In this document: piece by piece, positions 2,037 through 17,866 of the stretch
Layout: every line of letters begins with the position of its first letter
How positions within the stretch are numbered: position 1 is the stretch's first letter
Assembly (NCBI GenBank): GCA_001899205.1
Contig: MKVL01000025.1
Coordinates: forward strand, 186,001-250,000
Length of the DNA: 64,000 bases
Direction of reading: 5' to 3'
DNA from: Mesorhizobium sp. 65-26
Lineage (GTDB): Bacteria; Pseudomonadota; Alphaproteobacteria; Rhizobiales; Rhizobiaceae
Notes under the pieces: model-generated
What the model saw: the letters and a program-made list of their open reading frames with translations, nothing else
What the model was told of the DNA's origin: nothing
Database searches by the model: none
Program-made: the position numbers and the translations under genes

Positions 2037-2834
2037 ATGAGTTCTCAAGGCAGCAACGTCAACGGCGGAGGCTCACCGCTGATCCCGTCCTGGGTCGGTA
2101 GCCTGATAATACTGGTGGTCTTCCTCGGTGTCTGGGAAGGCTATGTCCAGTTGTTCAACGTCAGCAAGCTGGTGCTGCCGCCGCCTTCCGAAGTCGTCGT
2201 GGCGTGGTTCGGGTTCCTGGGCAGCAAGAGCGTCTGGTTCCACACCGGCGTGACGGCGTGGGAGACCTTCCTCGGTTTCGTCTTCGCCAGCATTTTCGGC
2301 GTCGGCCTCGGCTTCCTGCTCGGCAAGATGCCGCGCCTGGAACGCATGCTCAATCCGTTCGTGATCGCCACCCAGGTCATCCCGAAAGTGGCGCTGGTGC
2401 CGCTGTTTGTCGTCTGGTTCGGCTTCGGCATCACATCGAAGGTGGTGATCGCCTCGATCCTCGCCTTCTTCCCGATCCTGCTCAACACGGTGCTGGGGAT
2501 CAAGTCCGTCGACACCGGCCATGAAGAGGTGATGAAGAGCCTGAACGCTACCCGCTGGCAGCGGCTGACGCAGCTCGATTTCCCAAGCTCGCTTCCCTAC
2601 ATCCTGACCGGCATGGAGGTGGGCGTCGTGCTCTCGATCATCGGCGCGGTGGTCGGCGAGTATCTCGGCGGAAACAGCGGCCTCGGCAATCTCGCGGTGA
2701 AGGAGATGAACTCCTACAACACCACGGCGCTGTTCGCCGTCATCATGCATCTTTCGATACTCGGCTTTGCCTTCTACGCGGTCGTCGTCGGCCTGCGCAA
2801 ATACCTGATTTCCTGGCACGGCTCGTCGAACTGA
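2037..2834 (+). CDS. NitT/TauT-family ABC transporter permease
   Basis: The 265-residue protein is the inner-membrane subunit, with about six hydrophobic segments and the SsuC/TauC-like coupling region around 'GMEVGVVLSIIGAVVGEYLGG'-type sequence near residues 200-220. It is expected to pair as a homodimer with the ATPase encoded just upstream. ATG 2037 is chosen because it gives the short cytoplasmic N-terminus usual in this family; an in-frame ATG at 1995 is possible. It completes a three-gene importer in the order binding protein, ATPase, permease. Confidence 0.85.
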   Translation: MSSQGSNVNGGGSPLIPSWVGSLIILVVFLGVWEGYVQLFNVSKLVLPPPSEVVVAWFGFLGSKSVWFHTGVTAWETFLGFVFASIFGVGLGFLLGKMPRLERMLNPFVIATQVIPKVALVPLFVVWFGFGITSKVVIASILAFFPILLNTVLGIKSVDTGHEEVMKSLNATRWQRLTQLDFPSSLPYILTGMEVGVVLSIIGAVVGEYLGGNSGLGNLAVKEMNSYNTTALFAVIMHLSILGFAFYAVVVGLRKYLISWHGSSN

Positions 2835-2945: not shown

Positions 2946-5144
2946 ATGTCTGACATCGAACCAAGTCTCGCGACCGCCATCAAGAAGGTGGGCGCCCTGG
3001 TCCATCCGAGGAACGTCGTGCTGGTGGGCGCCAGCGACCGGCCCGGCAGTTGGCCGGCGACCGTCTGGAAGACCGCCCACGAACATGGGTTCAAGGGCAG
3101 GATCTACGCGGTCAACCCGAACCGCGACACGATCGGCGGCGAGCCCTGCTACAAGGATTTCGCCTCGCTGCCGGAAAAGCCGGATCATGTCGCCTTCCTG
3201 ACGCCGGCCCAGCACGTGCCAGCCGGTCTTGCGGCGGCGGCGGCGGCGGGCGCGCGCAGCGCAACCGTCTTTGCCTCCGGCTTCGGCGAGGACGGCAGCC
3301 CCGACGGCCTGCGGCTTGCCGCCGAACTGGCGCGCGTCGTCGAGGAAACGGGCATCGGCGTGACCGGCCCGAACTGCACCGGCAACATCATCGCCGACAG
3401 CGGCGTCGTGACGCTGGTCGACCATCGCAAGCTCAATGTCGCGCCAGGCGTCGTCTCGTTGGTCGGCCAGAGCGGCGGCGTGCTGCTCTACGCCAACCAC
3501 ATCCTCGCCGATCGCGGCATCCAGATCGGCAAGCTGATCACCAGCGGCAACGAGATTGGCCTCAACTGCGCCGACTACATCGCCTATCTGGCGCAGGACG
3601 ACGCCACCCGCGTCATCTTCTGCTATCTGGAATCGATCAAGGACCTCGGCAAGTTCAAGGCTGCCTGCGCGCTGGCGCGCGACAATGGCAAGCCGGTGAT
3701 CGTGTTCAAGATCGGCGCCAGCGAGGAAGGCCGCAAGGCAGCGATGACCCACACGGGGGCCCTCGCCGGCAGCTCGGCGGTGTTCGACGCCGTGCTGCAG
3801 GACGTGGGCGTGCTGCGCGCCGACAGCCTCGACGAGGCGGTCGAGATGATCGAGCTCGTCGTCCATCTGGGCGTGCCGATCGGCTTCAACATCGGCGCCA
3901 TGAGCCTGTCGGGCGCCTATCGCGGCATCCTGGTCGACGCCGCGGCCGGCAGCGGCATGAAATTCCCGCCGCTCGCCGACGATGTCGAGACGCGACTGAC
4001 GGCGCTGCTCGGCGTCGGTTCCTCGGCCGGCAATCCGACCGATGGCGGTTTCACCGTGCTCACCAGTGTCGAGAAATACATCGAGGCGGTCGACATCTTC
4101 TGCGACGACCCGAACCTCGACGTCCTGGTGCTGCAGGCGGAACTGCCGCGCGAGGAGGGCATGGCCGCCCATTGGGAGGAGCGTTTCCAGGGCATACACG
4201 ACCTGGTGACGCGGCGCGGCAAGAAGCTCGCCTTCATATCGATGTTCTCGCGCATGTACACCGACTATACCCGCAAGCTGCGCGCCGACCTGCCCAACGT
4301 GGCCTTCATTCACGAGACCACCAAGTCGGTCAGCGCGCTTGCCCGGCTGGCCAGGTGGTCGCAACTCGCGGAGCGGGCAAAACGCGAGGCGGCCGCCATC
4401 TCGAACGAAAAGCGCCAGGCCTCGGCGGCGGCGATCGCCCTGCGCCAGCGCGCCGGCGTGTCGTCCGGCACATTCCTGCTCAACGAGCGCGATTCCAAGC
4501 AGTTGCTGGGTGCCTATGGCATGGCCGTGACGCGCGAGGAGGTCGCGGGGAGCGAGGACGAGGCGGTGCGTCTTGCCGACGCCATCGGCTATCCGGTGGT
4601 GCTGAAGGCGGTGTCGGACAGGCTCTACCACAAGTCGGACATCGGCGCCGTCCAGCTCGGCCTCGGCAACGCCGACGCCGTGCGGGCGGCCTATCGGCTC
4701 ATCCATGAGAACGTCGCGCGCTCCGGCTTCAAGGGTGAGCTCGACGGCATCCTCGTGTGCCAGCAGATCGACGGCGGAACGGAGCTCGTGGCCGGCATCC
4801 AGCGCGATCCCGAGATGGGCCCGGTGCTGATGGTCGGCAGCGGTGGCGTGCTGCTCGAGCTGATGCAGGACGTCGCCTTTGCGCCGCTGCCGGTGAGCCG
4901 CGAAAGGGCGCTCGAGCTGATCCGCTCGACGCGCATCAGCAAGCTTCTGGGCGGCTATCGCGGCGAGGCCGCGCATGACCTTGCGCGTGTTGCCGACTCG
5001 CTTGTGGCGCTCGGCAACCTGGCTGTCGATCTCGGCGACGCGCTGGAATCGATCGACATCAATCCGCTGGTCAGCCGGGCCGGCGACAAGGACCCGATCG
5101 CGCTCGACGCGGTCGTCGTGCTGGGCAGGGAGGCCGCGCACTGA
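2946..5144 (+). CDS. ADP-forming acyl-CoA synthetase (acetate-CoA ligase type, fused subunits)
   Basis: This 732-residue enzyme makes an acyl-CoA from a free acid, CoA and ATP, giving ADP and phosphate. The order is a CoA-binding Rossmann domain (VVLVGAS, residues 24-30), succinyl-CoA-ligase-like domains containing the phospho-histidine motif MTHTGALAG (His269), and a C-terminal ATP-grasp domain from about residue 490 to 730. This is the fused alpha-beta arrangement of bacterial ADP-forming synthetases. A strong GGAGGA ribosome site lies five bases before the ATG. It follows the importer and its stop overlaps the MaoC start (TGATG). It probably activates the imported acid, which is an inference. 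Confidence 0.9.
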   Translation: MSDIEPSLATAIKKVGALVHPRNVVLVGASDRPGSWPATVWKTAHEHGFKGRIYAVNPNRDTIGGEPCYKDFASLPEKPDHVAFLTPAQHVPAGLAAAAAAGARSATVFASGFGEDGSPDGLRLAAELARVVEETGIGVTGPNCTGNIIADSGVVTLVDHRKLNVAPGVVSLVGQSGGVLLYANHILADRGIQIGKLITSGNEIGLNCADYIAYLAQDDATRVIFCYLESIKDLGKFKAACALARDNGKPVIVFKIGASEEGRKAAMTHTGALAGSSAVFDAVLQDVGVLRADSLDEAVEMIELVVHLGVPIGFNIGAMSLSGAYRGILVDAAAGSGMKFPPLADDVETRLTALLGVGSSAGNPTDGGFTVLTSVEKYIEAVDIFCDDPNLDVLVLQAELPREEGMAAHWEERFQGIHDLVTRRGKKLAFISMFSRMYTDYTRKLRADLPNVAFIHETTKSVSALARLARWSQLAERAKREAAAISNEKRQASAAAIALRQRAGVSSGTFLLNERDSKQLLGAYGMAVTREEVAGSEDEAVRLADAIGYPVVLKAVSDRLYHKSDIGAVQLGLGNADAVRAAYRLIHENVARSGFKGELDGILVCQQIDGGTELVAGIQRDPEMGPVLMVGSGGVLLELMQDVAFAPLPVSRERALELIRSTRISKLLGGYRGEAAHDLARVADSLVALGNLAVDLGDALESIDINPLVSRAGDKDPIALDAVVVLGREAAH

Positions 5145-5617
5145 TGAGCCAGAACACCATTCCGCTCGACTTCACCTTCGACACGCTCGAAGTCGGTCAG
5201 AAATCGATCAGCGGCGGCCGCACCATCAGCGACGCCGACCATAACCTCTACATGATGCTGACGGGCGGCTGGCACCCCATCCATTGCGACGTCGAATATG
5301 CGCGTGAGGCTGGACTGGACGGCCTGCTGGTGCAGGGCACGCTGGGGCTTGCCATGTCGCTCGGCAGCCATCTGGAAGCCCCCTTGCTCAGATCCGCCGA
5401 CCCCCTTGTCGGCGCGCTTGGCGTCAAGGAATGGACCTATCTCGGCCCGATCTTCGTCGGCGACACGTTGCATATCGAGGTCGAGATCGTCGACAAGAAG
5501 CTGACCAGCGACGGCAAGCGCTATGTGGTCGACCGCCAGATCACCCTGCTCAACCAGAAAGGCAAGGCGATCCAGAAGGGCATCGCCCGGTCGATGTGGC
5601 GTCGCGCCGACGCCTGA
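5144..5617 (+). CDS. MaoC-like hot-dog-fold protein with altered catalytic motif
   Basis: The 157-residue protein has the single hot-dog fold of MaoC/(R)-specific enoyl-CoA hydratases, which add water to 2-enoyl-CoA. The hydratase motif sits at residues 39-50 as LTGGWHPIHCDV. Family members usually have Asp where this protein has Gly42, while the partner His47 is present. Loss of the catalytic Asp means it may be a thioesterase-like, binding or altered-mechanism member. It overlaps the acyl-CoA synthetase gene by one base and ends the operon just before a terminator. It probably acts on the CoA ester made by its neighbour. Confidence 0.8.
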   Translation: MSQNTIPLDFTFDTLEVGQKSISGGRTISDADHNLYMMLTGGWHPIHCDVEYAREAGLDGLLVQGTLGLAMSLGSHLEAPLLRSADPLVGALGVKEWTYLGPIFVGDTLHIEVEIVDKKLTSDGKRYVVDRQITLLNQKGKAIQKGIARSMWRRADA

Positions 5618-5754: not shown

Positions 5755-6651
5755 TCAGATGCGATAGAAACGTTCCGCGGTGCCGGCAAACAGCGCATCG
5801 CGCTCGGCATCGCTGAAGTCGCGCGTGACGGTGTCGTAGGCGTCGAACAGCGTGGCAAAATCGCTGTAGAGGCTGTCGACCGGGAAGTTGCTGCCGAACA
5901 TGGCTCGCCGCGGGCCGAATATGTCGATCATGGTCAGTATGTATGGGCGGATGGATTCCACCGTCCATTTGTGGTCGACCATGCCGAGCCCGGACAGCTT
6001 GATATCGACGTGGTCGAGCTCGGCCAACAGTTTCAGGCCGTTGCGCCACTCCTTGAGCTGCGCGAGGCTGCGGTCGATCGGCATGCCGGAATGGTCGATC
6101 ACGACAGGCACGTCCGGATTGGCCTTGAGCAGGTCGTGCGCCTGCTTCATCTGCCCCGCATAGATCTGCAGGTCGAAGGACAGCCCGTATCGGGCGAGCA
6201 GGGCGAAGTTCCTCCGCCAGCCGTCATGCTCCAGGTAGTTCTGCGGCGCATAGACCTTGCTCATGTCGGAGTGCCAGTTGATCATCTGGCGGATGCCGCG
6301 GACGTTGGCATGGGCCTTGTGGCGCTCCATGTAGGATTGCGCGTCATCGCGGTGCATCTCGATCTTGGCGACGATCGCGTTCGGATAGCCATGCGCGTCG
6401 GCGATTCCCTGCAGCCACGCGGTTTCCTCCACGGCCTTGGCCGGATCGCATCCGGCCTCGACATGCACCGACTTGACCACGTTGTGGTGCCCGAACCCCT
6501 TGATGTAGCGATCCACGGTGAAGTTGTCGGTGATCGGCGTGATGTTGCCGCAGATCGTCGGCGGCACCGGGCGCATCGACAGCCATGGATAGTAAATATG
6601 GTTCAGGTCCCACAGGTGATGGTGGGCATCGACGATGCGCAAGCCGGACAT
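5755..6651 (-). CDS. Amidohydrolase family 2 (TIM-barrel metal hydrolase)
   Basis: The 298-residue protein starts with VDAHHHLWD, whose H10-x-H12 pair supplies metal ligands in the amidohydrolase superfamily. The motif and length match the COG3618 branch, which contains 2-pyrone-4,6-dicarboxylate hydrolase and L-fuconolactonase. Most such enzymes open a lactone. An AAGGAGGAGTT ribosome site precedes the ATG. It is the last gene of a leftward operon with a flavin-reductase-like gene, a crotonase and a GMC oxidoreductase, so a ring-opening hydrolysis in that pathway is likely. The substrate is unknown; a nonoxidative decarboxylase is a less likely alternative. Confidence 0.8.
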   Translation of the reverse strand: MSGLRIVDAHHHLWDLNHIYYPWLSMRPVPPTICGNITPITDNFTVDRYIKGFGHHNVVKSVHVEAGCDPAKAVEETAWLQGIADAHGYPNAIVAKIEMHRDDAQSYMERHKAHANVRGIRQMINWHSDMSKVYAPQNYLEHDGWRRNFALLARYGLSFDLQIYAGQMKQAHDLLKANPDVPVVIDHSGMPIDRSLAQLKEWRNGLKLLAELDHVDIKLSGLGMVDHKWTVESIRPYILTMIDIFGPRRAMFGSNFPVDSLYSDFATLFDAYDTVTRDFSDAERDALFAGTAERFYRI

Positions 6652-6664: not shown

Positions 6665-7282
6665 TCAGCAGTCCTTGACGGTTGGGGAAATCTGCGCCCT
6701 GACGATCTCGCCGCGCGTCACGTAGAGCGGTCCGCCGATGCGGCCGAGTGAGGCATAGCCGACGGGATCGATGCGGTCCCCGAGCCACAGCGCGTCGGCG
6801 ACATGGAAGCAGACGACGTCGCCGATGATCAGTCGATGCGCATGCGCGTCGCCGACCTCGATGATGCGGTCGACGCGGCACTCCATGGCAACAGCGGCGT
6901 CGCGCACGAAGGGCGTCTCGATGACGGTGGCCGGTGCCAACGCGACGTCCAGCGTGGCTGCCTCGCTGATGCCGGCGTCGAACGCATGCGAGCTGTCGAC
7001 CATCGCCTGCAACTGGTCGGGCATGACCGAGCTGATCGAGAATTCGCCGCGCGCCATGGCGTTGGCCAGCGTGTCCTTCAGCACATCGGTGCCGGGGCCG
7101 ACGCTGATCAGCACCTTGGCCGGCAGGTAGCTGATGAAGGTGAAGCTGCTGAAGGGGGCGAGATTGACGCCGTTGCGCCCGTCGAGCGTTGCCGTCCATG
7201 CGATCGGGCGCGGCGTGACCGCCGCGGAGATCAGCTTGTAGGAGCGGTTTTCGTCGAGGTCGTGGGTGGGGATCGTGATCAT
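6665..7282 (-). CDS. Flavin reductase family protein (FMN-binding split barrel)
   Basis: The 205-residue protein matches the FMN-binding split-barrel flavin reductases. The hallmark 'SAAVTPRPIAWTAT' near residues 19-32 and 'NLAPFSSFTFIS' near 40-51 form the flavin pocket. These proteins reduce flavin with NAD(P)H for a partner monooxygenase, or act as flavoenzymes themselves. No flavin-dependent monooxygenase partner is encoded beside it, so its acceptor is unclear. It lies 13 bases upstream of the amidohydrolase gene and 58 bases after the crotonase gene, in one leftward operon. Confidence 0.85.
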   Translation of the reverse strand: MITIPTHDLDENRSYKLISAAVTPRPIAWTATLDGRNGVNLAPFSSFTFISYLPAKVLISVGPGTDVLKDTLANAMARGEFSISSVMPDQLQAMVDSSHAFDAGISEAATLDVALAPATVIETPFVRDAAVAMECRVDRIIEVGDAHAHRLIIGDVVCFHVADALWLGDRIDPVGYASLGRIGGPLYVTRGEIVRAQISPTVKDC

Positions 7283-7340: not shown

Positions 7341-8138
7341 CTAGCAGGCCCGGAAGGGGCCTGGCTTGCGTTTCTCGACCATGGCGCGCACGGCCTCCTT
7401 GAAATCCTGCGTCAGGTGCAGCTTGAGGTGGCCTGTCTCGAAGGCGATCTCGCGCACCAGCTTCGAGAAGTGCCAGCGGCGGATGCGGTTTGTTTCGCGG
7501 ACGCTGAGCGGCGGGTTGGACGCTATGCTTGCCGCCATCGCCATCGCCGCCTGCAGCGCTTCGCCGGCAGGCGCGACGGCGTTGAACAGGCCGGCCTGGC
7601 GTGCCTCCTCCGCGCCGAACATGCGTCCGGTGAGGCATACTTCATCGGCCCAGATGCCGCAGCCGCGCGCCTTCATTAGCGCCAGGTGGCGGTAGCCGCC
7701 CAGCCCGCGCGGTGTTTCCGTGACCTGGAGCCGCGCGGCCTCGTCACAGACGATGAGGTCGCAGTCGAGCGCCAGGCCCAGCCCCAGCCCCAGCACGTTG
7801 CCGTGCAGGGCGGCGATGACTGGCTTGTGGTGAAGCGAGCGGGAGAAGAGCTCGAAGAACGGATGGCCGACGCTCATCTGGTCGCGGCTTGCCGCCAGCT
7901 CCTCGCGGCTTGCCATCTGGCTTTCCGCGATGTCCGCGCCGCTGCAGAACGATTTGCCGCGACCCGAAAGCACCGCCACGTCGGCCTCGCCATCGGCGTC
8001 GAAACGGTCGAGCTCCTCACCGAGCCGCCGGATCTGCGCCAGGGTGAGCGCATTGTGCCTGGCCGGCCGGTTGATCTCGATCCGCGCGATCCGGTCGCTG
8101 ACGGCGTATTCGATCGTGCCCTGATCCAGATCCTGCAT
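7341..8138 (-). CDS. Enoyl-CoA hydratase/isomerase family protein (crotonase fold)
   Basis: The 265-residue protein belongs to the crotonase superfamily, which acts on acyl-CoA thioesters. It has the oxyanion-hole region 'GRGKSFCSGADI' near residue 65 and 'HGNVLGLGLGLAL' near 110. Two glutamates equivalent to the hydratase pair appear to be present (TETPRGLGG and WADEVCLTG), so hydratase activity is plausible. ATG 8138 is favoured by GGGAGG just upstream; an in-frame start 60 bases earlier lacks that signal. It lies between the GMC and flavin-reductase genes. The exact CoA substrate is unknown. Confidence 0.85.
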   Translation of the reverse strand: MQDLDQGTIEYAVSDRIARIEINRPARHNALTLAQIRRLGEELDRFDADGEADVAVLSGRGKSFCSGADIAESQMASREELAASRDQMSVGHPFFELFSRSLHHKPVIAALHGNVLGLGLGLALDCDLIVCDEAARLQVTETPRGLGGYRHLALMKARGCGIWADEVCLTGRMFGAEEARQAGLFNAVAPAGEALQAAMAMAASIASNPPLSVRETNRIRRWHFSKLVREIAFETGHLKLHLTQDFKEAVRAMVEKRKPGPFRAC

Positions 8139-8220: not shown

Positions 8221-9831
8221 TTATAGCTGGCGCATCCGGTCCGCCACGCGCTCGGCCGCCATGATGATCGGCGCGTTGATGTTGCCGCCGATGGGCTCCG
8301 GGAAGATCGACGCATCGACCACGCGCAGCCCTTCGACGCCGTGCACGCGGCACTCGCTGTCGACGACGTTCATGGCGTCGCGATCGGGCCCCATGCGGCA
8401 TGTGCCGGCGGGGTGGTATGAGAGGGTGACGATGTTGCGGATATATTCGTCGATCTCCTGGTCGCTCTTCCTGGCGAGCCCGGGACCGATCTCCGTGCAA
8501 TGCGCGGTCAGGGCGCTCTGCTGGCCGATCTCGCGGAAGAGCTTGACGCCTTCGCGCAGGCGCCTGATGTCGGCATCCCTGTCCAGCACGGCCTCCTCGA
8601 TGATCGGAGCGCCGAACGGATCGGCCGATTTCAGCGCGACGGAGCCGCGCCCTTCGGGCCGGCACATGATCACGCGCGTCATGAAGCGATCCTGATAGGG
8701 TTGCACGAAGGGGCGCATCCACGGATGCGCGTCCATGGGGGCGCCGACAAACAGGAGCTGCAGGTCGGGCAGCCTCTGGCCGGCCTCGCTGCGCACGAAG
8801 CCGGTGATGCCGCCCGGCAGGCGTGAGGCGAAGCCCCCGCCGGTGAGATAGGCGCGCGCGAAGCCGAACGCCGCCTTGTCGGCCCGCATATTGTCGTGGA
8901 ACGGACCCGGCTTGTGCCGCTTGTAGACGATCGATACGCCATAGTGGTCGTGCAGGTTGCGGCCCACGCCCTTGAGATCGACCTTGCAGTCCACGCCCAG
9001 CGCGGCAAGCCGGTCGGCATCGCCGATGCCCGAAAGCATGAGGATCTGCGGCGAGTTGAACGCGCCGCCGCTCAGGATAACCTCGCGCTCGGCCCTGGCG
9101 GTGGTGACGATCTCGTCGCGGACGAAGTCGACACTGGTCGCCCTGCCGCCTTCCAGGTTGATGCGGGTTACCTGCGCATGATCGATGATGGTGAGGTTCT
9201 TGCGGCCGGCCGCCGGCTTGATGTAGCCGAGGTTGGTCGAGCAGCGCCGGCCGTCGCGCAAGGTCAGCTGCATGCGCGAAAAGCCCTCCTGTGAGGGGCC
9301 ATTATAGTCGTCCACCCAGGGATGGCCGGCCTGGCCGATCGCGTCGGCATAGGCTTCTATCGCGTCGTCCGTGTATTTCGACGTGCCGGTGCTGATCGGG
9401 CCGGACCCGCCTCGGTAGGCGCTCTCGCCGCCTTCCCAGCTTTCCTGCTTGCGGAAATAGGGAAGCACGTCCTCGTAGGACCATCCCTCGATGCCGAGCG
9501 CGCCGAGCCCGTCATAGTCCTGCCGGTTGCCGCGCACATAGGCCATGGTGTTGATCGACGAGGTGCCGCCCATCACCTTGCCACGCGGACAGTCCAGCAC
9601 GCGCCCGCCGAGCGCCTTCACGGGTTCGCTCTTGTAGTTCCAGTTGTGCATGCCGAGCCGTATCAGCATGCCCCAGCCGATCGGCACGTGGATCAGCGGA
9701 TTGAAGTCCGATCCGCCGGCCTCGAGCAGGAGAACGCTCACCTCGGGGTCTTCCGACAGCCGCGCAGCCATCGCGCAGCCGGCCGAGCCGGCGCCGATCA
9801 CGACATAGTCGAAGGACAGGGAGTTAGGCAT
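8221..9831 (-). CDS. GMC-family FAD-dependent oxidoreductase (choline dehydrogenase-like)
   Basis: This 536-residue flavoprotein oxidises an alcohol. The N-terminal dinucleotide motif GAGSAG is at residues 13-18, the GMC signature 'PRGKVMGGTSSIN' is near residue 85, and the C-terminal active-site pair lies in SYHPAGTCRMG and in GGNINAPI. Start 9831 is chosen because GGAGGG is five bases upstream and the FAD motif is then close to the N-terminus. It is the first gene of the leftward operon below the LysR gene. Choline itself is unlikely to be the substrate, since no betaine-aldehyde dehydrogenase gene or BetI-type regulator accompanies it. Confidence 0.9.
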   Translation of the reverse strand: MPNSLSFDYVVIGAGSAGCAMAARLSEDPEVSVLLLEAGGSDFNPLIHVPIGWGMLIRLGMHNWNYKSEPVKALGGRVLDCPRGKVMGGTSSINTMAYVRGNRQDYDGLGALGIEGWSYEDVLPYFRKQESWEGGESAYRGGSGPISTGTSKYTDDAIEAYADAIGQAGHPWVDDYNGPSQEGFSRMQLTLRDGRRCSTNLGYIKPAAGRKNLTIIDHAQVTRINLEGGRATSVDFVRDEIVTTARAEREVILSGGAFNSPQILMLSGIGDADRLAALGVDCKVDLKGVGRNLHDHYGVSIVYKRHKPGPFHDNMRADKAAFGFARAYLTGGGFASRLPGGITGFVRSEAGQRLPDLQLLFVGAPMDAHPWMRPFVQPYQDRFMTRVIMCRPEGRGSVALKSADPFGAPIIEEAVLDRDADIRRLREGVKLFREIGQQSALTAHCTEIGPGLARKSDQEIDEYIRNIVTLSYHPAGTCRMGPDRDAMNVVDSECRVHGVEGLRVVDASIFPEPIGGNINAPIIMAAERVADRMRQL

Positions 9832-9951: not shown

Positions 9952-10923
9952 CTAGCCATTCGCATTGGTTATGGCCCGGGGCCCCTTGCCGATCAGATTG
10001 AGCTCGAAGCAGACCGTGTTGATGCTGCGCAGCAACGCCTCGGCCGTCTGGGTGAGCTCGATCTCGGCCGGATGCACGAGGCCAAGCGAACGCGTCAGGT
10101 TGGGCAACTGGTCATGGTGGGAGATGCGCTCCAGCGGGATGTAGCGCAGATTGCCTGACGCGGTGCTGATCTCGGCGGCGTAGGCCGGGATGATGCCGAT
10201 GAAGTCGGTCTTGCGCACCACCTCGCGGATGAAGACCAGCGAATTGCTCTCGATCGGCCCCTTCGATGCCTCGATCTGGTTCTTGCGGGCGAGGTCGAGC
10301 ACGCCATCCCAGAGCGGCAACGCATCCTCCAGCATGACCCACCGGTGGGCGATCAGGTCGTCGAGGGAAATCTCCTTCTGGCTGAGCAGGCTGTGGCCCG
10401 TCCTGACCACCAGCGCGAAGGAATCATCGAACAGCTTCTGTGTCTTGAGGTCCGGCCCCTTGGTGCGCTCGTCCAGGATGGTGAAGAGCATGTCGAGGTC
10501 GCCGCGATGCAGGTCGACGAGCAGTTCCGAGATAGCGCCGCTGCGGATCTTGAACTTGAGGTTGGGCCGCTTCAGCGCGATGCGCACGATGGCCTTGGGG
10601 ATGATCTGGTCGAGAATGCCGGGGCCGGGCGTCACCCCCAGCGACACGCATCCGGTGAACTGCCCCTTGATGTGGTTGAGGTCGTCATTGGCCCGCCGCA
10701 GCTCCGATGTGACCGAGCGCGCGCGCTTATAGAAGGCTTCGCCGAACTTGGTCAGCTTGACGCCGCGCGGGCCGCGCTCGAGCAGGCGCACACCGAGCTG
10801 TTCCTCCAGGAGGCGCAGGCTTTTCGACAGCGCGGGCTGCGAGATGTAGAGCCGTTTCGACGTGCGGCTGAGGCTGCCGCTCTCCGCCACGTCAACGAAA
10901 CGCTCGAGTTGCTTCTGATCCAC
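9952..10923 (-). CDS. LysR-family transcriptional regulator
   Basis: The 323-residue protein has an N-terminal winged helix-turn-helix ('GSLSRTSKRLYISQPALSKS', about residues 16-35) and a C-terminal effector domain from about residue 90. The start is GTG at 10923; I see no nearby ATG and no strong ribosome site. It is divergent from the NicX-like/molybdenum hydroxylase operon and lies head-to-tail above the GMC operon, so it is the natural regulator of both. The intergenic DNA holds a direct repeat, CTGGCTAT. Confidence 0.9.
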   Translation of the reverse strand: MDQKQLERFVDVAESGSLSRTSKRLYISQPALSKSLRLLEEQLGVRLLERGPRGVKLTKFGEAFYKRARSVTSELRRANDDLNHIKGQFTGCVSLGVTPGPGILDQIIPKAIVRIALKRPNLKFKIRSGAISELLVDLHRGDLDMLFTILDERTKGPDLKTQKLFDDSFALVVRTGHSLLSQKEISLDDLIAHRWVMLEDALPLWDGVLDLARKNQIEASKGPIESNSLVFIREVVRKTDFIGIIPAYAAEISTASGNLRYIPLERISHHDQLPNLTRSLGLVHPAEIELTQTAEALLRSINTVCFELNLIGKGPRAITNANG

Positions 10924-10933
10924 GCTATACCCA

Positions 10934-10972
10934 CTGGCTATATCTAAAACAAAATATGTCCTATCTGGCTAT
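10934..10972. promoter_or_regulatory. Candidate LysR control region with spaced direct repeat
   Basis: CTGGCTAT occurs at 10934-10941 and again at 10965-10972, 31 bases apart, which is close to three helical turns. An A/T-rich stretch lies between the copies. The pair sits directly upstream of the LysR start and 82 bases before the NicX-like gene. Paired sites on one DNA face are typical for LysR tetramers, but no clear T-N11-A palindrome is visible, so the assignment is tentative. Confidence 0.4.
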
Positions 10973-11053
10973 CGGAAGCCTGTCTACTCCGTAACGGCTC
11001 AGCGTCGGTGCATGCTAGAATCACGCCAACGCAAATGGACAGGCAGGTGTCGA

Positions 11054-12097
11054 ATGATCCGGTTACCCATCACGCAGGAGAGCGCCGCGGACGTCATCCC
11101 GATCTTCCGGGAAGGACTGAAGCAGTCCAAGGTCGTGGCGGGCGAAAAGGTTGTCATCTACGCCGACAGCTTCACCAACCCGGTCTATTCGGCCGCCTTC
11201 ATGGCCGCCGCGCGCGATCTCGGTGCCAGCGCCTTCGTCATGACGCAGCCGCTGATCAATGCCGACGCCTCCAACAGCCTCGGCCGCGCCAATCCGCAGC
11301 CACTGATGATCGAGGTCATGAAGATGGCCGACTTCGTGGTCGATGTGTCGACCGGCGGCATGCTGTACTCCAGCGACCATGAGGCGATCCTCGCCACGGG
11401 CACGCGCATCCTGCGGGTGCGCGAGCCGGAGGACATACTGCTGCGCCTGATGCCCAGCGAACTGGTGAGGGACCGCGCCAATCGCGGCGTCGAGCGCTAC
11501 AAATCCGCCCGCACGATCCGCCTGACCTCGGCTGATGGAACCGATCTGGTCATGAGCAAGGGCGATCGCCCGGCGTCAAACCAGTATGGCATGGCCGATG
11601 CCATTGGCCGCTGGGATCACTGGGGCACGGGCCTGGTCTGCACCACCGTCGAGGAAGAGGCGGTCGAGGGCGTCCTTGTGCTGTCGCCCGGCGACATCCT
11701 CTTCCCGTTCGAGCGCTATGTGACCGAGCCGCTGAAGATCCATTTCGAGAAGGGCCTCGCCCATCGTCTCGAGGGCGGGCGCGAGGCCGTGATGCTGCGC
11801 ACCATGCTCGACGATCGCGGCGACGAAGGCGCTCGGCGGCTTTCTCACGTCGGCTGGGGCATCGAGCACCGCGCGACCTGGGACACGCTGTCGATCCGCG
11901 GCTGGGACAATGCAGGCGGCGTTGAATCCCGCTCGTGCTACGGCAACGTGCTGATGGCCATTGGCGAGAACCGCGACCTCGGCGGCAAGAACCCGTCGCG
12001 GCTGCATATCGACATGGCCTTCCGTTCGACGCGGCTGGAGATCGACGGCCAGCCGATCGTGGACTGCTGCAAGTTCCTCGACAAGTCGGTTGCCTAG
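11054..12097 (+). CDS. nicX: 2,5-dihydroxypyridine 5,6-dioxygenase-like ring-cleaving enzyme (NicX family)
   Basis: The 347-residue protein resembles NicX of Pseudomonas putida along its length, including 'GRWDHW', 'LVLSPGDILFPF' and 'SHVGWGIEHRATW'. NicX is a non-heme Fe(II) dioxygenase that opens 2,5-dihydroxypyridine to N-formylmaleamate. Its iron ligands are H265, H318 and D320; with ATG 11054 as start, this protein has His265 (SHVGWG), His318 and Asp320 (HIDMAF) at the same numbers. The stop is three bases before the molybdenum hydroxylase gene. Dioxygenase activity is likely, but the exact hydroxypyridine is not proven. Related proteins are often mislabelled leucyl aminopeptidase. Confidence 0.8.
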   Translation: MIRLPITQESAADVIPIFREGLKQSKVVAGEKVVIYADSFTNPVYSAAFMAAARDLGASAFVMTQPLINADASNSLGRANPQPLMIEVMKMADFVVDVSTGGMLYSSDHEAILATGTRILRVREPEDILLRLMPSELVRDRANRGVERYKSARTIRLTSADGTDLVMSKGDRPASNQYGMADAIGRWDHWGTGLVCTTVEEEAVEGVLVLSPGDILFPFERYVTEPLKIHFEKGLAHRLEGGREAVMLRTMLDDRGDEGARRLSHVGWGIEHRATWDTLSIRGWDNAGGVESRSCYGNVLMAIGENRDLGGKNPSRLHIDMAFRSTRLEIDGQPIVDCCKFLDKSVA

Positions 12098-12100
12098 GCA

Positions 12101-14422
12101 ATGACCATCGGCAAGCCCGTAGTCAGGGTGGAGGACGAGCGCTTCCTGCGCGGTGAGGGGCGCTTCACCGCTGACTACACACTTCCCTTCATGGTCGAGG
12201 CGCACATATTCCGCAGCCCTTACGGCCACGCCCGCATCGCGGCTATCAATCTCGATGCGGCCCTGGCGCTGAAAGGCGTGCATGCAATCGTCACCGGCGC
12301 CGACTTGCCGGAGGGCCTGGCGCCGATCCAGTGCCGCATCCCGACGCATGGCGACCTGTCGCCCTACCTGCAATATCCCCTGGCGCGCGACAAGGTGCGC
12401 TATGTCGGTGAGCCCATCGCCGTCATCGTCGCCGACACCCGCGCCGTCGCGGAGGATGCGGCGGAACTGATCGAGATCGACTTCGATCCGCTTCCCGCGG
12501 TGACCGATCCGGCACGCGCGATCGAGCCTGGCGCCGAGCCGATCCACGAAAGCGGCAATCTCGCCGGCCGGTGGGGCTTCGACCTCGGCGACGTACCGGG
12601 CGCGCTCAGCGAAGCCGCCTTCATCGCGTCCGACAGCTTTTCCATCCAGCGCCACTCGGCCATGCCGATGGAGACGCGCGGCCTGCTCGCCTCCTACGAT
12701 GCCGGCCGCAACCTGCTCGACATCTACGGCCCGACCAAGGTCGTGCACACCAACCGCAACATGCTGGCGGCGATGCTCGGCATGGGCGAGGCCGAAATTC
12801 GCATGATCGAGCCCGATGTCGGCGGCAGCTTCGGCGCGCGCGGCGAGTTCTATCCCGAGGACTATCTCATCCCGTTCGTTGCCATGCGTGTTCGCCGGCC
12901 GGTGCGCTGGATCGAGGATCGCGTCGAGCATTTCGCGGCGATCAACCATTCGCGCGACTGCGCTTTCCATGTCACCGTCGCCGCCAACAGGGACGGCATC
13001 ATCACCGCCTTCGACGTGAAGCTGGTGACCGACATGGGCAGCTATATCCGCACCCATGGCGACGTCGTCCCCTCGCATGCCGCCGCGTCCTTTCCGGGGC
13101 CGTATCGCGTTCGCAACTACCGCATCGACGCGATGACAGTGATGACCAACAAGACGCCGACCGGGACCTACCGCGCGCCCGGCATGTTCGAGGCCAATTT
13201 CGCTCGCGAGCGCGCCATCGACCGTCTCGCCGACAAGATGGGCATCGACCGCGCCGAACTGCGCCGCCGCAACCTGATCCAGCCGGAAGAGATGCCCTGG
13301 TATGTCGGTACCGAAAGCGTCAAGCGCCCGACCATCTTCGACAGCGGCAATTTCCCGCTGATCATGGACCGGGCGCTGAAAGCGTACGGCTGGGACGCTC
13401 CGTTCGAGCGCGAGGTGAATGGCTGGAAGCGGGGCAGGGGGCTCTGCGCGCTGGTCGAGCCGTCGGGGCTCGGGCCGTTCGAGGGCGTACGCATCGAGGT
13501 CGACCAGCACGGCAAGGTGCAGATCTTTTCCGGCTCGAGCAATCAGGGGCAGGGCCACGAGACCATCCTGGCGCAGATCGCCTCCGAGGTGCTGACCGTG
13601 CCGATGGAGAAGATCCGCGTGCGCCACGGCGACACCGGCATCATCACCTTCGGCGGCGGCACCTATGCCAGCCGCACTGCCATAATGGGCGGCAATGCGG
13701 TCCACAGCGCGTCCGTCGGCGTGCGCCAGAAAGCCCTCGACGCCGCCTCCCGCAAGTTCGGTATCGCCGTCGAGGATCTCGACCTGCGCGAAGGTGCCAT
13801 CTGGCATGGCCACAGGAACGAGCCGGTCGTCACCCTGGGCGGCATCGCGCGCATGCTGATGCCGGGCAACCAGGAGATCCTCGTCTCGCCCTCGGCCGGC
13901 AACATTCCCGACAATGACGGTCTCGTGGTGACCAGCTACGTGCGCGGCGTCACCGCCGGGGCAGCGGTCTTTGCCGTCCACATGGCCGATGTGCTGGTCG
14001 ATCCGGAAACGGGGGAGACCAAGGTCGAGCGTTACTTCGTCGCCTGCGACGTCGGCCGCCAGCTCAACCCGCTTATCGTCGAGGGCCAGATCGTCGGCGG
14101 TGTCGTCCAGGGCCTTGGCGGCACCTTCCTGGAGGAGCTCGCCTACAATGAGGACGGGCAACTGACGACCGGCACTTTCGCCGACTATCTGATGCCCAAC
14201 GTCTACGACGTGCCGCCGATCACCGCCCTGGTGTTCGAGGAATCGCCGGCCCTCACCAACGTGCTGGGGGTCAAGGGCGTCGGCGAGGTCGGGCCGTCAG
14301 GCGTCGGCGCCACCATCGGCAACGCCATCGCCAACGCGCTGGCGACCGATACCGGCCTCAACAAACTGCCGCTGACGCCGGAGCGCATCCTGCAATCGAC
14401 CGGCTTCGGAGGCCTGCAATGA
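12101..14422 (+). CDS. Molybdenum hydroxylase large subunit (xanthine dehydrogenase/CoxL family)
   Basis: The 773-residue protein binds the molybdopterin cofactor and carries the hydroxylation site. Visible family landmarks are 'EDERFLRGEGRF' at the N-terminus, 'GGSFGARGEFYPED' near 240, 'TYRAPGMFEANFARERA' near 350 and the catalytic-glutamate loop 'GVKGVGEVGPSGVGA' near 725. It lacks the CO-dehydrogenase loop with the active-site cysteine, so it is not a CO dehydrogenase. Enzymes of this class hydroxylate aza-aromatic rings next to nitrogen using water, for example quinoline, nicotinate and picolinate. Its place beside a NicX-like gene supports an N-heterocyclic substrate. Confidence 0.9.
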   Translation: MTIGKPVVRVEDERFLRGEGRFTADYTLPFMVEAHIFRSPYGHARIAAINLDAALALKGVHAIVTGADLPEGLAPIQCRIPTHGDLSPYLQYPLARDKVRYVGEPIAVIVADTRAVAEDAAELIEIDFDPLPAVTDPARAIEPGAEPIHESGNLAGRWGFDLGDVPGALSEAAFIASDSFSIQRHSAMPMETRGLLASYDAGRNLLDIYGPTKVVHTNRNMLAAMLGMGEAEIRMIEPDVGGSFGARGEFYPEDYLIPFVAMRVRRPVRWIEDRVEHFAAINHSRDCAFHVTVAANRDGIITAFDVKLVTDMGSYIRTHGDVVPSHAAASFPGPYRVRNYRIDAMTVMTNKTPTGTYRAPGMFEANFARERAIDRLADKMGIDRAELRRRNLIQPEEMPWYVGTESVKRPTIFDSGNFPLIMDRALKAYGWDAPFEREVNGWKRGRGLCALVEPSGLGPFEGVRIEVDQHGKVQIFSGSSNQGQGHETILAQIASEVLTVPMEKIRVRHGDTGIITFGGGTYASRTAIMGGNAVHSASVGVRQKALDAASRKFGIAVEDLDLREGAIWHGHRNEPVVTLGGIARMLMPGNQEILVSPSAGNIPDNDGLVVTSYVRGVTAGAAVFAVHMADVLVDPETGETKVERYFVACDVGRQLNPLIVEGQIVGGVVQGLGGTFLEELAYNEDGQLTTGTFADYLMPNVYDVPPITALVFEESPALTNVLGVKGVGEVGPSGVGATIGNAIANALATDTGLNKLPLTPERILQSTGFGGLQ

Positions 14423-15294
14423 AGCCGGCTCCGTTCGACTATTTCGCGCCGACGACGCTGGAGGAAGCGCTCGGCCTGCTCAAGCAGTACGGTTCCGATG
14501 CCCGCGTCATCGCCGGCGGCCAAAGCCTCGTGCCGATGCTGGCGCTGCGGCTCGCGCGGCCGGAAGTGATCGTCGACCTCAACCGCGTAGCGGCGCTTGC
14601 CGGCATCGCCGAGGATGGCGAAAGCCTGCGCATCGGCGCCATGACGCGCCAGGCGAGGGCGCTGGCCAGCCCGTTGGTGCACGAGAAGCTTCCTTTGCTG
14701 CGTCATGGGCTGGAGAATGTCGGCCACCCGCCGACGCGTGCCCGCGGCACGCTGGGCGGCAGCATCGCGCATGCCGATCCCGCGGCCGAGACGCCGATGG
14801 TGATGCTTGCCTACCGCGCGACGATGGTGCTCGCCGGCGGCGCCGGCGAGCGCGCCGTGCCGGCGGATGAGTTCACGCTCGGCACATTCGATACCTGCAT
14901 CGCGGAAGGCGAGATCCTCAAGGAGATCGTTGTCGAGGTCCGGCCCGACGAGGGCACCGGCTTCTTCGAACTGTCGCGGCGGCGCGGCGATTTCGCCATG
15001 GCCTCGGCGGCGGCGCGTATGCGCCTCGACGCGGCAGGCACATGCATCGAGGCGCATCTGATGATCGGCGCCGTGGCGCCGGTGCCGCTGCGCTGCGACG
15101 CGGTGGCCGAAGCGCTCGTCGGCGCCATCCCCACCGAGGTGCGCATCCGCGAGGCCGTACGGCTCATCGACCTCGATGCATTCGAATTCGACAATCCGGA
15201 GATCAGCCTCGCCTACCGGCGGCACATCGCGCCGGTGCTGGCGCGCCGCGCCCTGATGCAGGCGGCAAGCCGTGCGGGAGACCTGCGCCAATGA
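14419..15294 (+). CDS. Molybdenum hydroxylase FAD-binding medium subunit
   Basis: The 291-residue protein is the flavin subunit of the three-part hydroxylase. The FAD motif 'AGGQSLVPML' is near residues 33-42 and the second motif 'TLGGSIAHADPAAE' is near 111-124, as in CoxM/QorM proteins. It passes electrons from the iron-sulfur subunit to an acceptor. It overlaps both the large-subunit and small-subunit genes by four bases (ATGA), which favours equal synthesis of the three chains. Confidence 0.9.
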   Translation: MKPAPFDYFAPTTLEEALGLLKQYGSDARVIAGGQSLVPMLALRLARPEVIVDLNRVAALAGIAEDGESLRIGAMTRQARALASPLVHEKLPLLRHGLENVGHPPTRARGTLGGSIAHADPAAETPMVMLAYRATMVLAGGAGERAVPADEFTLGTFDTCIAEGEILKEIVVEVRPDEGTGFFELSRRRGDFAMASAAARMRLDAAGTCIEAHLMIGAVAPVPLRCDAVAEALVGAIPTEVRIREAVRLIDLDAFEFDNPEISLAYRRHIAPVLARRALMQAASRAGDLRQ

Positions 15295-15773
15295 AGAAGC
15301 ACTCCGTCGATCTCACCGTCAACGGCCGCGAGGCCTCGCTGCTGGTCGAGCCGCGCCAGAGCCTGGCCGATGCGCTGCGCGGCGAACTGGGCCTGACCGG
15401 TTCGCATCTCGGCTGCGAGCACGGCGTCTGCGGCGCCTGCACGATCATCGTCGACGGCGATCCCGTGCGCGGCTGCCTGATGCTGGCGGTGCAGGCACAG
15501 GGCGCCGACGTCGTCACCGTGGAGGGCGTATCGCCCAAGGTCGGCCTCAGCGAGATCCAGGCCGCGCTCCGGGAATTCCATGGCTTGCAGTGCGGGTTCT
15601 GCACGCCCGGCATGGTGGTCGTCCTGCACCATCTTTTCTCGGAGAATCCGCGGCCCAGCGAGGCCGAGATCCGCGAAGCCATTTCCGGGCAGCTGTGCCG
15701 CTGCACCGGCTACCAGGGCATCATGAACGCGGCAAAGGCCGTCGCCGCCCGTCACCAGTCCAAGAACGTCTAG
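15291..15773 (+). CDS. Molybdenum hydroxylase [2Fe-2S] small subunit
   Basis: The 160-residue protein carries two [2Fe-2S] clusters. The plant-ferredoxin-type cluster uses C42, C47, C50 and C62, and the helical-domain cluster uses C101, C104, C136 and C138; all eight cysteines are present. Length and layout match CoxS/QorS-type subunits. It overlaps the FAD subunit gene by four bases and completes a large-medium-small set. Confidence 0.95.
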   Translation: MKKHSVDLTVNGREASLLVEPRQSLADALRGELGLTGSHLGCEHGVCGACTIIVDGDPVRGCLMLAVQAQGADVVTVEGVSPKVGLSEIQAALREFHGLQCGFCTPGMVVVLHHLFSENPRPSEAEIREAISGQLCRCTGYQGIMNAAKAVAARHQSKNV

Positions 15774-15806
15774 CCACTAGAAGATCGAGAAGAACAGGGA
15801 TCAGAA

Positions 15807-16313
15807 ATGCCGATTTGCGTGAACATCGACGACATCGAAGAAGGCCAGAACGTTCTGCAGACGCGCGGTGGCGCGATGTCGACCAAGATGGTCTACGGCA
15901 ACGACTGCAACATGATGATTGCGGTGCGTGGACCCGGCTACCATTCCCACCCGCACACCCATGATGCCGAGCAGATCAACTACGTGACCGCGGGCGAGGT
16001 CTGGGTGTTCATCGGCGAGGGCGGCTTCCTGATGAAGGCCGGCGATCTCTGCCGCATCCCGCGCAACGCCGTGCACTGGGCCTGGAACCGCAGCGATGCC
16101 GACGTCACGCTGATCGAGGTGCATGCGCCGGCTTGCGACCCGCTGGTCCGCAAGGGCGCCATGGGCCTCTATTTCGATGGCGAGACCCCCGATCTGTCGA
16201 CTGCGGTCAACACCGTGCGCTCGGGCTTCGAGGCCGATCCGATGGAAATCGAGGCTCGTGTGCTCGGCATGACGGTCGATGCATTGAAGGCGGAGCTTGC
16301 CGCCGCCAAATAG
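15807..16313 (+). CDS. Cupin-domain protein
   Basis: The 168-residue protein has a single cupin barrel. Motif 1 is HSHPHTHDAEQINYVTAGE (about residues 49-67), giving His and Glu metal ligands, and the second-motif histidine is in 'NAVHWAWN' near residue 90. The C-terminus carries an extra helical part. An AGGGATC ribosome site precedes the ATG. Cupins of this size may be isomerases, dioxygenases or ligand sensors, and the sequence does not decide. It lies between the hydroxylase and the aldehyde dehydrogenase genes, so a step or sensor in the same pathway is likely. Confidence 0.8.
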   Translation: MPICVNIDDIEEGQNVLQTRGGAMSTKMVYGNDCNMMIAVRGPGYHSHPHTHDAEQINYVTAGEVWVFIGEGGFLMKAGDLCRIPRNAVHWAWNRSDADVTLIEVHAPACDPLVRKGAMGLYFDGETPDLSTAVNTVRSGFEADPMEIEARVLGMTVDALKAELAAAK

Positions 16314-16402
16314 GCCGGCGCGGCGTAGCAGGGTTCGTGTCAGGGCCGGGTGACGGCCTGGCTTCCAAAATAGGCAAGCAACAGCAGTCGACGGAGTTTT
16401 CG

Positions 16403-17866
16403 ATGACGCAGGATGCCGGGGCGCCGCTGGCGGCGATGTTCATCAACGGGCAGTTCCAGCAGGCCCAGGGCGGGGAGACGTTCGTCTCCATCAACCCGGC
16501 GAATGGCCAGCCGGTCGCGCGCATCCCGTTTGGCGACGACCGCGACGCCAGGCTTGCCGTCGATGCGGCGGCGGACGCCTTCCCGGTCTGGTCCAGGCTG
16601 AGCGCCGCCGTCCGTGCTAGGCATCTGCATCGCGTCGCCGACATCCTGGAGCGCCGTCGCGGCGAGATGGCGCTGGTCATCACCAGCGAGGAAGGCAAGC
16701 CGCTGCACGAGGCGCAGGGCGAACTCCAGCTCTCCATCGATTCGCTGCGCTGGTATGGCGAGGAGGCGCGACGCGCCTATGGCTCCTGGATTCCCGACCC
16801 CGTTCCCGGCCGGCGCCTGCTGACCCAGCGCGACCCGGTCGGCGTCTGCGGCGCCATCATTCCCTGGAATGTCCCGTGTGGCATGATCTTCCGCAAGGCA
16901 GCCCCAGCGCTCGCGGCGGGCTGCACCATGGTGCTGAAGCCGGCCGAGGCGACGTCCTACGTGGCGCTCAAGATCGCCGAGGTTTTCGCCGAGGCCGACC
17001 TGCCGGCCGGCGTGATCAATTTCGTCACCGGCAAGGCCTCGGCGATCGGCAACGTTTTCCTGACCGACGAGCGGGTGCGCAAGATCTCCTTCACGGGCTC
17101 GACCGAAACCGGGCGCGTGCTGTTGCGCGGCGCCGCCGATCACATCAAGCGGACCTCGATGGAGCTCGGCGGCAACGCGCCGGTGATCCTGTTCGAGGAT
17201 TGCGATCTCGACGCCTCGCTGCGCGCGGTGGCGGCGCTCAAGTTCCTCAACGCCGGCCAGGCCTGCATCGGGGCCAACCGCATCTATGTCCAGTCATCGA
17301 TCCATGACGAGGTCGGCCGCCGTCTCGCCGACCACGCCCGGCAGATGAAGGTCGGCGAAGGCTCCCTGCCCGGCGTGGCGATGGGGCCGCTGGTCGACAT
17401 GAAGGCGGTCGAGAAGGTCGAGGAACTGGTTGGCGATGCCGTCAGGAAGGGCGCCAGCGTGCGCGCCGGCGGCTCGCGCATGCAGGGCGAGGCCTATGAG
17501 AAGGGCAGCTTCTATGCCCCGACCGTCCTGACCGAGGTGCCGAGGACCGCGCGCATGCATGACGAGGAGATCTTCGGTCCGGTCGCGGCCCTCTATGCCT
17601 TCGAGACCGAGGAGCAGGCTGTCGAACTGGCGAACGACGTTCCCTACGGGCTCTCGGCCTATATCTTCACCGAGAACATGGACCGCGCCATCAGGGTCGG
17701 TGAACGGCTGGAGACCGGCATGGTCGGCATCAACGAGATCCGGCTTGGCGCGGCCGAAGCGCCGTTCGGCGGCGTGAAGATGAGCGGCATCGGCCGCGAG
17801 GGCGGTCGAGAGGGGCTCGACGAGTATCTCGAGACCAAGCTGCTGGCGATCCGCGTCAAGGGCTGA
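16403..17866 (+). CDS. NAD(P)-dependent aldehyde dehydrogenase (succinate-semialdehyde dehydrogenase-like)
   Basis: The 487-residue protein is a complete, apparently active ALDH. It has the oxyanion asparagine N156 in PWNVP, the general base E254 in MELGGNAP and the catalytic C288 in NAGQAC. Overall it most resembles GabD-type semialdehyde dehydrogenases. ATG 16403 is chosen because ACGGAG lies six bases upstream and gives a normal N-terminus. It is the last gene of the operon that starts with the NicX-like dioxygenase, so it probably oxidises an aldehyde formed after ring opening; the substrate is inferred only from context. Confidence 0.9.
   Translation: MTQDAGAPLAAMFINGQFQQAQGGETFVSINPANGQPVARIPFGDDRDARLAVDAAADAFPVWSRLSAAVRARHLHRVADILERRRGEMALVITSEEGKPLHEAQGELQLSIDSLRWYGEEARRAYGSWIPDPVPGRRLLTQRDPVGVCGAIIPWNVPCGMIFRKAAPALAAGCTMVLKPAEATSYVALKIAEVFAEADLPAGVINFVTGKASAIGNVFLTDERVRKISFTGSTETGRVLLRGAADHIKRTSMELGGNAPVILFEDCDLDASLRAVAALKFLNAGQACIGANRIYVQSSIHDEVGRRLADHARQMKVGEGSLPGVAMGPLVDMKAVEKVEELVGDAVRKGASVRAGGSRMQGEAYEKGSFYAPTVLTEVPRTARMHDEEIFGPVAALYAFETEEQAVELANDVPYGLSAYIFTENMDRAIRVGERLETGMVGINEIRLGAAEAPFGGVKMSGIGREGGREGLDEYLETKLLAIRVKG

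Follow-up and report, generated by a model that had tools for sequence, protein, structure and literature searches.

We analysed a 64,000-nucleotide stretch of contig MKVL01000025.1 from Mesorhizobium sp. 65-26 (the window; positions are counted from its first letter), in which a six-gene operon between positions 11054 and 17866 joins a relative of the 2,5-dihydroxypyridine dioxygenase NicX to a molybdenum (Mo) hydroxylase. All six open reading frames (ORFs) are intact and lie on the plus strand. They encode a NicX-family protein of 347 residues (11054..12097), the large (773 residues, 12101..14422), FAD-binding medium (291 residues, 14419..15294) and [2Fe-2S] small (160 residues, 15291..15773) subunits of the Mo hydroxylase, a cupin_2 protein of 168 residues with no assigned role (15807..16313), and an aldehyde dehydrogenase (ALDH) of 489 residues (16397..17866), recognised by Pfam, whose starting methionine is codon 89 of its ORF and whose nearest NCBIfam model, SSADH, scores under its cut-off. 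Three bases separate the NicX-like gene from the large-subunit gene, ATGA overlaps occur at both subunit junctions (14419 and 15291), and the six genes stand in a co-transcribable order. Scoring by G+C content selected four of the six ORFs; the Fe-S and cupin ORFs, which it did not select, are backed instead by Pfam and by conservation. The same order is found in three other genomes at approximately 75-93% amino-acid identity, which rules out a chance assembly, and the five genes tested (those for the NicX-like protein, the Mo large and small subunits, the cupin, and the LysR-family regulator described below) are under purifying selection. An earlier description of this DNA, made from its letters and ORFs and here called the sequence-only reading, had recognised a complete Mo/FAD/2Fe-2S hydroxylase three bases downstream of a NicX homologue, followed by a cupin and an ALDH, and had proposed that the six genes be sought together elsewhere; the ORFs and Pfam assignments bear out the first point and the three other genomes the second.

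The NicX-like protein matches NicX of Pseudomonas putida (PDB 7cn3) with a phmmer E-value of 5.9e-53 over residues 11-336 of its 347, with 108 of the 324 aligned residues identical (33%). Up to an E-value of 10 the PDB yields two matches only, 7cn3 and aminopeptidase T, the latter a weak link to the M29 family (E 0.3), and neither Pfam nor NCBIfam assigns the protein to a family at E 0.001. M29 aminopeptidases have a Glu/His/Asp two-metal site. Because the alignment with 7cn3 is free of gaps beyond residue 104, His265, His318 and Asp320 of the window protein stand at the numbers of the NicX iron ligands, just as the sequence-only reading had stated, and its assignment to the NicX family with a 2-His-1-carboxylate triad agrees with this alignment.

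According to the published account of NicX, its iron is held by four protein ligands, His265, Ser302, His318 and Asp320, and the mutants H265A, S302A, H318A and D320A are each without activity and without iron; the substrate is held by His189 and by Glu177, which contacts the pyridine nitrogen and oxygen, with 6.9% of activity left in H189A and 2.7% in E177A, while Arg293 supports and positions Asp320, and H105F stays active (PMC7910607). The same account presents NicX as defining a subtype of the non-heme iron ring-cleavage dioxygenases, describes its serine ligand as absent from other non-heme dioxygenases, and reports that in this Ser302-containing enzyme the dihydroxypyridine is not a ligand of the iron (PMC7910607). 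Set against the P. putida enzyme (PDB 7cn3, 7cnt and 7cup), the window protein keeps His265, His318, Asp320, Arg293, His189 and Leu104 at the same numbers, together with Trp187 and Asp188, but replaces three residues: the fourth iron ligand Ser302 is Ala, His105 is Tyr, and Glu177 is Gln, so that only His189 of the contact pair is kept. To call the protein NicX-like on the strength of three ligands was therefore an overstatement in the sequence-only reading, as both the serine ligand and a main acid of substrate binding are replaced.

The family alignment counted here has 90 rows, comprising P. putida NicX, the window protein and those of the listed matches that were fetched as loci, and two of its rows (L030 and L122) are identical. 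Position 302 is Ser in 83 of these 90 rows; of the other seven, four (the window protein with its three orthologues) have Ala, the sister proteins L083 and L036 have Glu, and the remote row L023 has Ala and also lacks His265. The three ligands His265, His318 and Asp320 are kept together in 87 of the 90. Gln177 is more widespread, with 28 of 90 rows, including a group associated with HpaB-type flavin hydroxylases and amidases. A set of 24 nic-type rows had been chosen among those with Glu177 and is on that account unusable as evidence about this residue; a recount was made on 18 fetched loci chosen instead by an adjoining gene for a NicE/NdpH-type isomerase, and in all 18 the NicX protein has both Glu177 and Ser302. 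Phe105 is present in 17 of these 18, which, along with the activity of H105F NicX, means that Tyr105 says little about function. On these alignments, we class the window protein as a new variant within the NicX superfamily and not as a 2,5-dihydroxypyridine dioxygenase, because two of the features tested, Ser302 and the Glu177 contact, are absent.

Orthologues of the NicX-like protein were sought with exact short peptide patterns, a method of limited reach, in one genome from each of 84,980 species. They occur in Mesorhizobium sp. LHD-90 (88% identity), Corticibacterium sp. UT-5YL-CI-8 (85%) and a metagenome-assembled genome (MAG) of the Rhizobiaceae (86%), and all four proteins share Ala302, Gln177 and Tyr105. 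No further orthologue was found in samples of 101 genomes of relatives, 385 of the class, 397 of the order and 398 of the phylum, which overlap in part, include the genome of strain 65-26 each time and were searched with differing E-value limits; the best other match in these samples has 40% identity, and the best among 206 plasmid records has 39.5%. For the Mo large subunit, close orthologues (E 1e-220) among the 397 genomes of the order were confined to the genome of strain 65-26.

The ratio dN/dS is 0.05-0.10 for the NicX-like gene compared with its orthologues (loci L054, L055 and L056), and 0.02-0.15 over all pairs for the other four genes tested (Mo large subunit, Mo small subunit, cupin and LysR). 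Such strong purifying selection rules out a decaying NicX copy and argues for a remodelled enzyme. In a tree of 73 rows, which omits six short or fragmentary rows (L011, L015, L018, L040, L049 and L053), L023 and the duplicate L009, the four Ala302 proteins form a clean clade on a long stem (support 100/99). This clade joins L083 and L036 against all other rows with support of 99/98, and a quick tree agrees; when L083 and L036 are left out, it adjoins the rhizobial nic clade weakly (72/38). Constraining it with P. putida NicX and the two nearest rows of the latter is disfavoured (p-AU 0.037). Judged by these trees, the Ala302 clade lies inside no clade of NicX from nic clusters; the length of its stem makes the choice of sister group uncertain. 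The sequence-only reading had suggested a tree of NicX homologues as a check on whether the protein groups with proven 2,5-dihydroxypyridine dioxygenases; the part of the answer that stands is its position outside the nic-cluster clades, while the sister group changes with the rows included.

The partner of the NicX-like protein has the make-up of a three-subunit enzyme of the xanthine oxidase family. By Pfam, the large subunit has two Mo-cofactor domains and a hammerhead domain, the medium subunit has FAD_binding_5 and CO_deh_flav_C, and the small subunit has Fer2 and Fer2_2; all eight cysteines for the two clusters can be read in the small-subunit sequence. The large subunit keeps the GE motif, whose glutamate we take to be the catalytic one. 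Its best-scoring solved relative is 6-hydroxypseudooxynicotine dehydrogenase of nicotine breakdown (PDB 7dqx, 470 bits), with which it shares a YRAPG loop; next come quinoline 2-oxidoreductase (1t3q, 378 bits), a putative oxidoreductase (363) and CO dehydrogenases (356 and less). The GE motif is the same in 7dqx and 1t3q; the operon differs, and no nicotine genes were recognised around the window enzyme. Aerobic CO dehydrogenase is marked by an AYRCSFR loop with a Cu-binding cysteine. The window protein reads TYRAPG at that place, and the NCBIfam model for CO dehydrogenase scores 592.5 against a cut-off of 950; identity as a CO dehydrogenase was rejected because the cysteine loop is absent. 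All three Mo-hydroxylase subunits also lie near a NicX-family gene in nine of the 45 further loci examined (L096, L101, L103, L104, L119, L125, L127, L128 and L134), with large subunits 29-38% identical to that of the window.

The known nicotinate (nic) and picolinate (pic) routes likewise join a Mo hydroxylase to a NicX-type enzyme, and the sequence-only reading had remarked that their flavin monooxygenase, deformylase, maleamate amidase and maleate isomerase were not recognisable here. Searches of the whole genome uphold this for the amidase (NicF) and the isomerase (NicE). NicC, NicE and NicF have no match on the window contig; elsewhere in the genome the best NicE match has 28% identity (E 2e-12) and the best NicF match by E-value has 27% (E 3e-19), with lesser ones of up to 34% over 150 residues and 43% over 47. 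The Corticibacterium genome (G831), which served as a positive control, gives 72% for NicE and 73% for NicF, beside a canonical NicX with Glu177 and Ser302. For the flavin monooxygenase NicC there is a 35% match on another contig (C4:222633); even the nic cluster of G831 reaches only 37%. By Pfam there is no alpha/beta hydrolase among the window genes of the conserved block described below, and no genome-wide search for the deformylase NicD was made. None of the matches in the genome of strain 65-26 makes a convincing maleate isomerase or maleamate amidase, and a canonical nic or pic pathway was rejected on this ground. G831 holds both the canonical NicX and the Ala302 variant, an argument for a separate role of the variant.

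Nic clusters of rhizobia were available for comparison from Phyllobacterium (L063), Mesorhizobium AR07 (L064), Rhizobium ruizarguesonis (L068) and Corticibacterium (L141), with gene names that we assigned from annotated products, gene order and tblastn. The first three, as annotated, resemble the window in that a single locus encodes both a NicX-family protein and a Mo hydroxylase. Their Mo hydroxylase is, however, encoded by two genes and accompanied by NicC, NicD, NicE, NicF and a MarR regulator, whereas the window has a three-subunit enzyme and a LysR regulator on a contig with no NicC, NicE or NicF match. The Corticibacterium cluster has matches to NicC, NicD, NicE, NicF and NicX, and no Mo-subunit match within the 20 kb examined.

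The sequence-only reading had treated the operon as a unit standing alone, and synteny corrects this, as the six genes form the end of a conserved block of about 34 kb (contig positions 170.1-203.9 kb), half of which lies upstream of the window. The block occurs with some gaps in two of the other genomes (G830 and G832), and in the third (L055) it is broken by a contig end inside the flavin reductase gene. The six genes and those for the LysR regulator, a GMC oxidoreductase and an enoyl-CoA hydratase are syntenic in L054, L055 and L056, with further genes in L054 and L056, where the order runs from the ABC ATPase through the CoA synthetase, MaoC/amidohydrolase, flavin reductase, enoyl-CoA hydratase, GMC enzyme and LysR/NicX-like pair to the Mo enzyme, cupin and ALDH. 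The ALDH gene is the right-hand border, and the five window genes tested past it have no match in the approximately 4 kb beyond the ALDH gene of each of these loci.

Next to the operon, the LysR-family regulator (9952..10923, minus strand; Pfam) is 89-95% identical to its orthologues and is divergent from the NicX-like gene. In the promoter region between them (10924..11053), 31 of the 38 columns at 10937-10974, a likely regulator site as judged by conservation, are invariant in four genomes, with CTATCTGGCTATCG wholly unchanged. Further genes on the minus strand encode the GMC oxidoreductase, a choline-dehydrogenase-like flavoprotein (8221..9831; Pfam), the protein of the enoyl-CoA hydratase/isomerase family (7341..8138), a flavin-reductase-like FMN protein (6665..7282; Pfam) and an amidohydrolase_2 family hydrolase that is remotely lactonase-like (5755..6651; Pfam). 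On the plus strand lie a MaoC-like hydratase (5144..5617), an NDP-forming acyl-CoA synthetase of 732 residues (2946..5144), an ABC transporter of the taurine/sulfonate type (1163..2834; ATPase 1163-1963, permease about 1977-2834) and an NMT1/THI5-like substrate-binding protein (147..1166) with an orthologue in G830 (88%) and none beside the ABC ATPase in G832.

Upstream of the window (locus L091), synteny with G830 and G832 reaches an NMT1-type binding protein about 16 kb away. The genes common to both include those for MaoC, a second flavin reductase, a second ABC transporter, an amidase, malonyl-CoA synthase and an AllG-family protein; shared with G830 are a 2-hydroxyacid dehydrogenase, a class II aldolase, CoxG, malonyl-CoA decarboxylase and the second NMT1 protein, which opens the window. 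The score of the malonyl-CoA synthase, 812.9, exceeds the cut-off of 558. In G830 no malonyl-CoA decarboxylase was found besides that of the block, the genome of strain 65-26 has one further copy, and in G831 and G832 the enzyme is encoded elsewhere. The AllG-family gene (oxamate carbamoyltransferase subunit; L091:17439-18755) adjoins the genes for malonyl-CoA decarboxylase and synthase, a combination new to us.

Taken together, these data are best fitted if the block serves the breakdown of an N-heteroaromatic that is not 2,5-dihydroxypyridine, a reading that we hold tentatively, at somewhat short of an even chance. The suggestion of the sequence-only reading that the operon serves another N-heterocycle or another ring-opening sequence is thus the one we retain. 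The NicX-like protein would probably act on another ring, through a so far undescribed route, and the end product, as suggested by the gene neighbourhood, is perhaps malonate. In outline, the NMT1-type ABC transporter would import the compound, the GMC enzyme and ALDH would oxidise an alcohol side chain to the acid, and the Mo enzyme would add a hydroxyl group beside the ring nitrogen with water as the source of oxygen. The NicX-like enzyme, with Fe(II) in a bare 2-His-1-carboxylate triad, would then add O2 and open the ring. In classical extradiol enzymes a bidentate substrate and O2 take up the three iron sites that such a triad leaves free. The loss of Ser302 would free a site on the iron, and the substrate may, as in these enzymes, bind the iron directly, which by this analogy is the simplest mechanism to propose for the Ala302 clade. 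The amidase or amidohydrolase, CoA ligases and hydratases would complete the chain, which malonyl-CoA synthase (and the decarboxylase in two of three genomes) would lead to malonate instead of maleate or fumarate. A fuller version, that this is an undescribed aerobic route from an N-heteroaromatic, possibly a pyrimidine or an alkanol-substituted pyridine, to malonate, built on a NicX-family metal site that has been remade as a bare triad in the Ala302 clade and by a carboxylate apparently moved from 320 to 302 in L083 and L036, is possible but on balance unlikely.

Several observations weigh against this interpretation. The orthologues are 85-88% identical to the window protein, so that their shared Ala302 is weak evidence by itself, and the structure predicted for the clade (mean pLDDT 34.4) is too poor for the iron site to be inspected. 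As the S302A mutant of P. putida NicX loses both iron and activity, an Ala302 enzyme may, by analogy, not bind iron at all. The deep placement of the clade may reflect long-branch attraction, since it moves beside the rhizobial nic clade, with its weak 72/38 support, once L083 and L036 are removed. NMT1 proteins and GMC and ALDH enzymes are common and unspecific, and malonyl-CoA decarboxylase, CoxG, the 2-hydroxyacid dehydrogenase, the aldolase and the second NMT1 protein have no match in the G832 stretch. NicF-like proteins (49% and 45%) occur outside the block in G830 and G832, which leaves some chance of a maleamate-type end in those genomes.

The retained triad, Arg293, His189, Leu104 and Trp187-Asp188 would also suit an ordinary 2,5-dihydroxypyridine 5,6-dioxygenase in a shortened pathway, in which the Mo enzyme might convert 3-hydroxypyridine to 2,5-dihydroxypyridine and unrelated proteins serve as deformylase and amidase. 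A study of Agrobacterium DW-1 proposes conversion of 3-hydroxypyridine through 2,5-dihydroxypyridine to N-formylmaleamate (PMC6525221), and a route of this type would need no flavin monooxygenase. Tyr105 by itself is no obstacle, and the tree without the two sister rows places the clade, with weak support, next to the rhizobial nic clade. We nevertheless consider such an enzyme improbable: the Ser302 and Glu177 changes correspond to positions at which NicX mutants are inactive or nearly so, both residues are present in every isomerase-adjoining row, and the genome has no convincing NicE or NicF.

Somewhat less improbable, though still unlikely, is that the protein, as a descendant of the NicX/M29 stock, acts as a metal-dependent hydrolase or lyase and uses water in place of O2 to open the ring of a cyclic amide made by the Mo enzyme. 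Loss of a ligand that the dioxygenase requires is consistent with this, as are the weak aminopeptidase T match and the Ala302 of remote row L023, and the amidase, malonyl-CoA synthase and AllG-family gene would suit a hydrolytic route from an oxidised ring of pyrimidine type to a derivative of malonate. The window protein, however, keeps all of His265, His318, Asp320 and Arg293, the last of which positions Asp320 in the dioxygenase, and L023, which lacks His265, is no close model. A three-ligand site is also what extradiol dioxygenases offer to bidentate substrates, and the CoA ligases, enoyl-CoA hydratase and MaoC are typical of aromatic-acid routes, so that one could picture the opening of a carbocycle, similar to hydroquinone or gentisate, in the bare triad, with the Mo hydroxylase acting elsewhere on the molecule or on an aldehyde. 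We consider this improbable, to the same degree as the ordinary dioxygenase, because the nearest solved relatives of the Mo subunit are N-heteroaromatic hydroxylases and the block includes an amidase, and we know of no characterised NicX-family enzyme that cleaves a carbocycle.

Among the open-licence papers listed in searches on NicX with dihydroxypyridine, ring-cleavage clusters, the gene combination, and malonate- or barbiturase-linked routes, none describes such a cluster in its title or abstract. A NicX member that lacks the serine yet is under purifying selection, and that occurs beside a canonical NicX in Corticibacterium (G831), offers a natural test of the role of the fourth ligand, and the conserved block provides a testable gene set for a catabolic route. 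The variant also carries a warning for annotation, as public records often label such proteins 'leucyl aminopeptidase' or 2,5-dihydroxypyridine dioxygenase.

Other loci with NicX-family genes show related arrangements. L119 and L134 share an operon with the order NicX-like gene, CoxG, FAD subunit, Fe-S subunit, Mo subunit and alpha/beta hydrolase, followed, as read by eye, by a branched-chain-type ABC transporter. They resemble the window in combining a Gln177 NicX-family protein and a three-subunit Mo hydroxylase with no match to nicC, nicE or nicF nearby, and they show that this pairing without maleamate genes is not confined to the window clade; they differ in keeping Ser302, in having Phe187 for Trp187, and in Mo large subunits that share no more than 29% and 32% identity with that of the window. 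The Gln177 group mentioned above (L093, L110, L113, L114, L115, L116 and L118) combines a NicX-like gene with an HpaB-type flavin hydroxylase and two amidases, and in six of the seven with a flavin-reductase match; it is probably another heterocycle route.

In L083 (G529:C79:900-1880) and L036 (G228:C5:174079-175062), His265 and His318 are kept and the other positions read Glu302, Glu293 and Gly320. From the alignment, the carboxylate ligand appears to have moved from 320 to 302, with the supporting Arg293 lost too. Neither gene has a Mo hydroxylase match beside it, and by eye the genes near L083 look like those for a TRAP transporter and an enzyme of the enolase superfamily. Finally, the genome of strain 65-26 has a second NicX-family gene (L092; contig C15, 248007-248984), 27% identical to the first, with Ser302 kept and Thr177. 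Genes in its vicinity encode a double cupin, an FAA hydrolase, a flavin reductase, and nitrilase-like and glutamine-synthetase-like enzymes, and it has close relatives in genomes G005, G042, G054 and G055.

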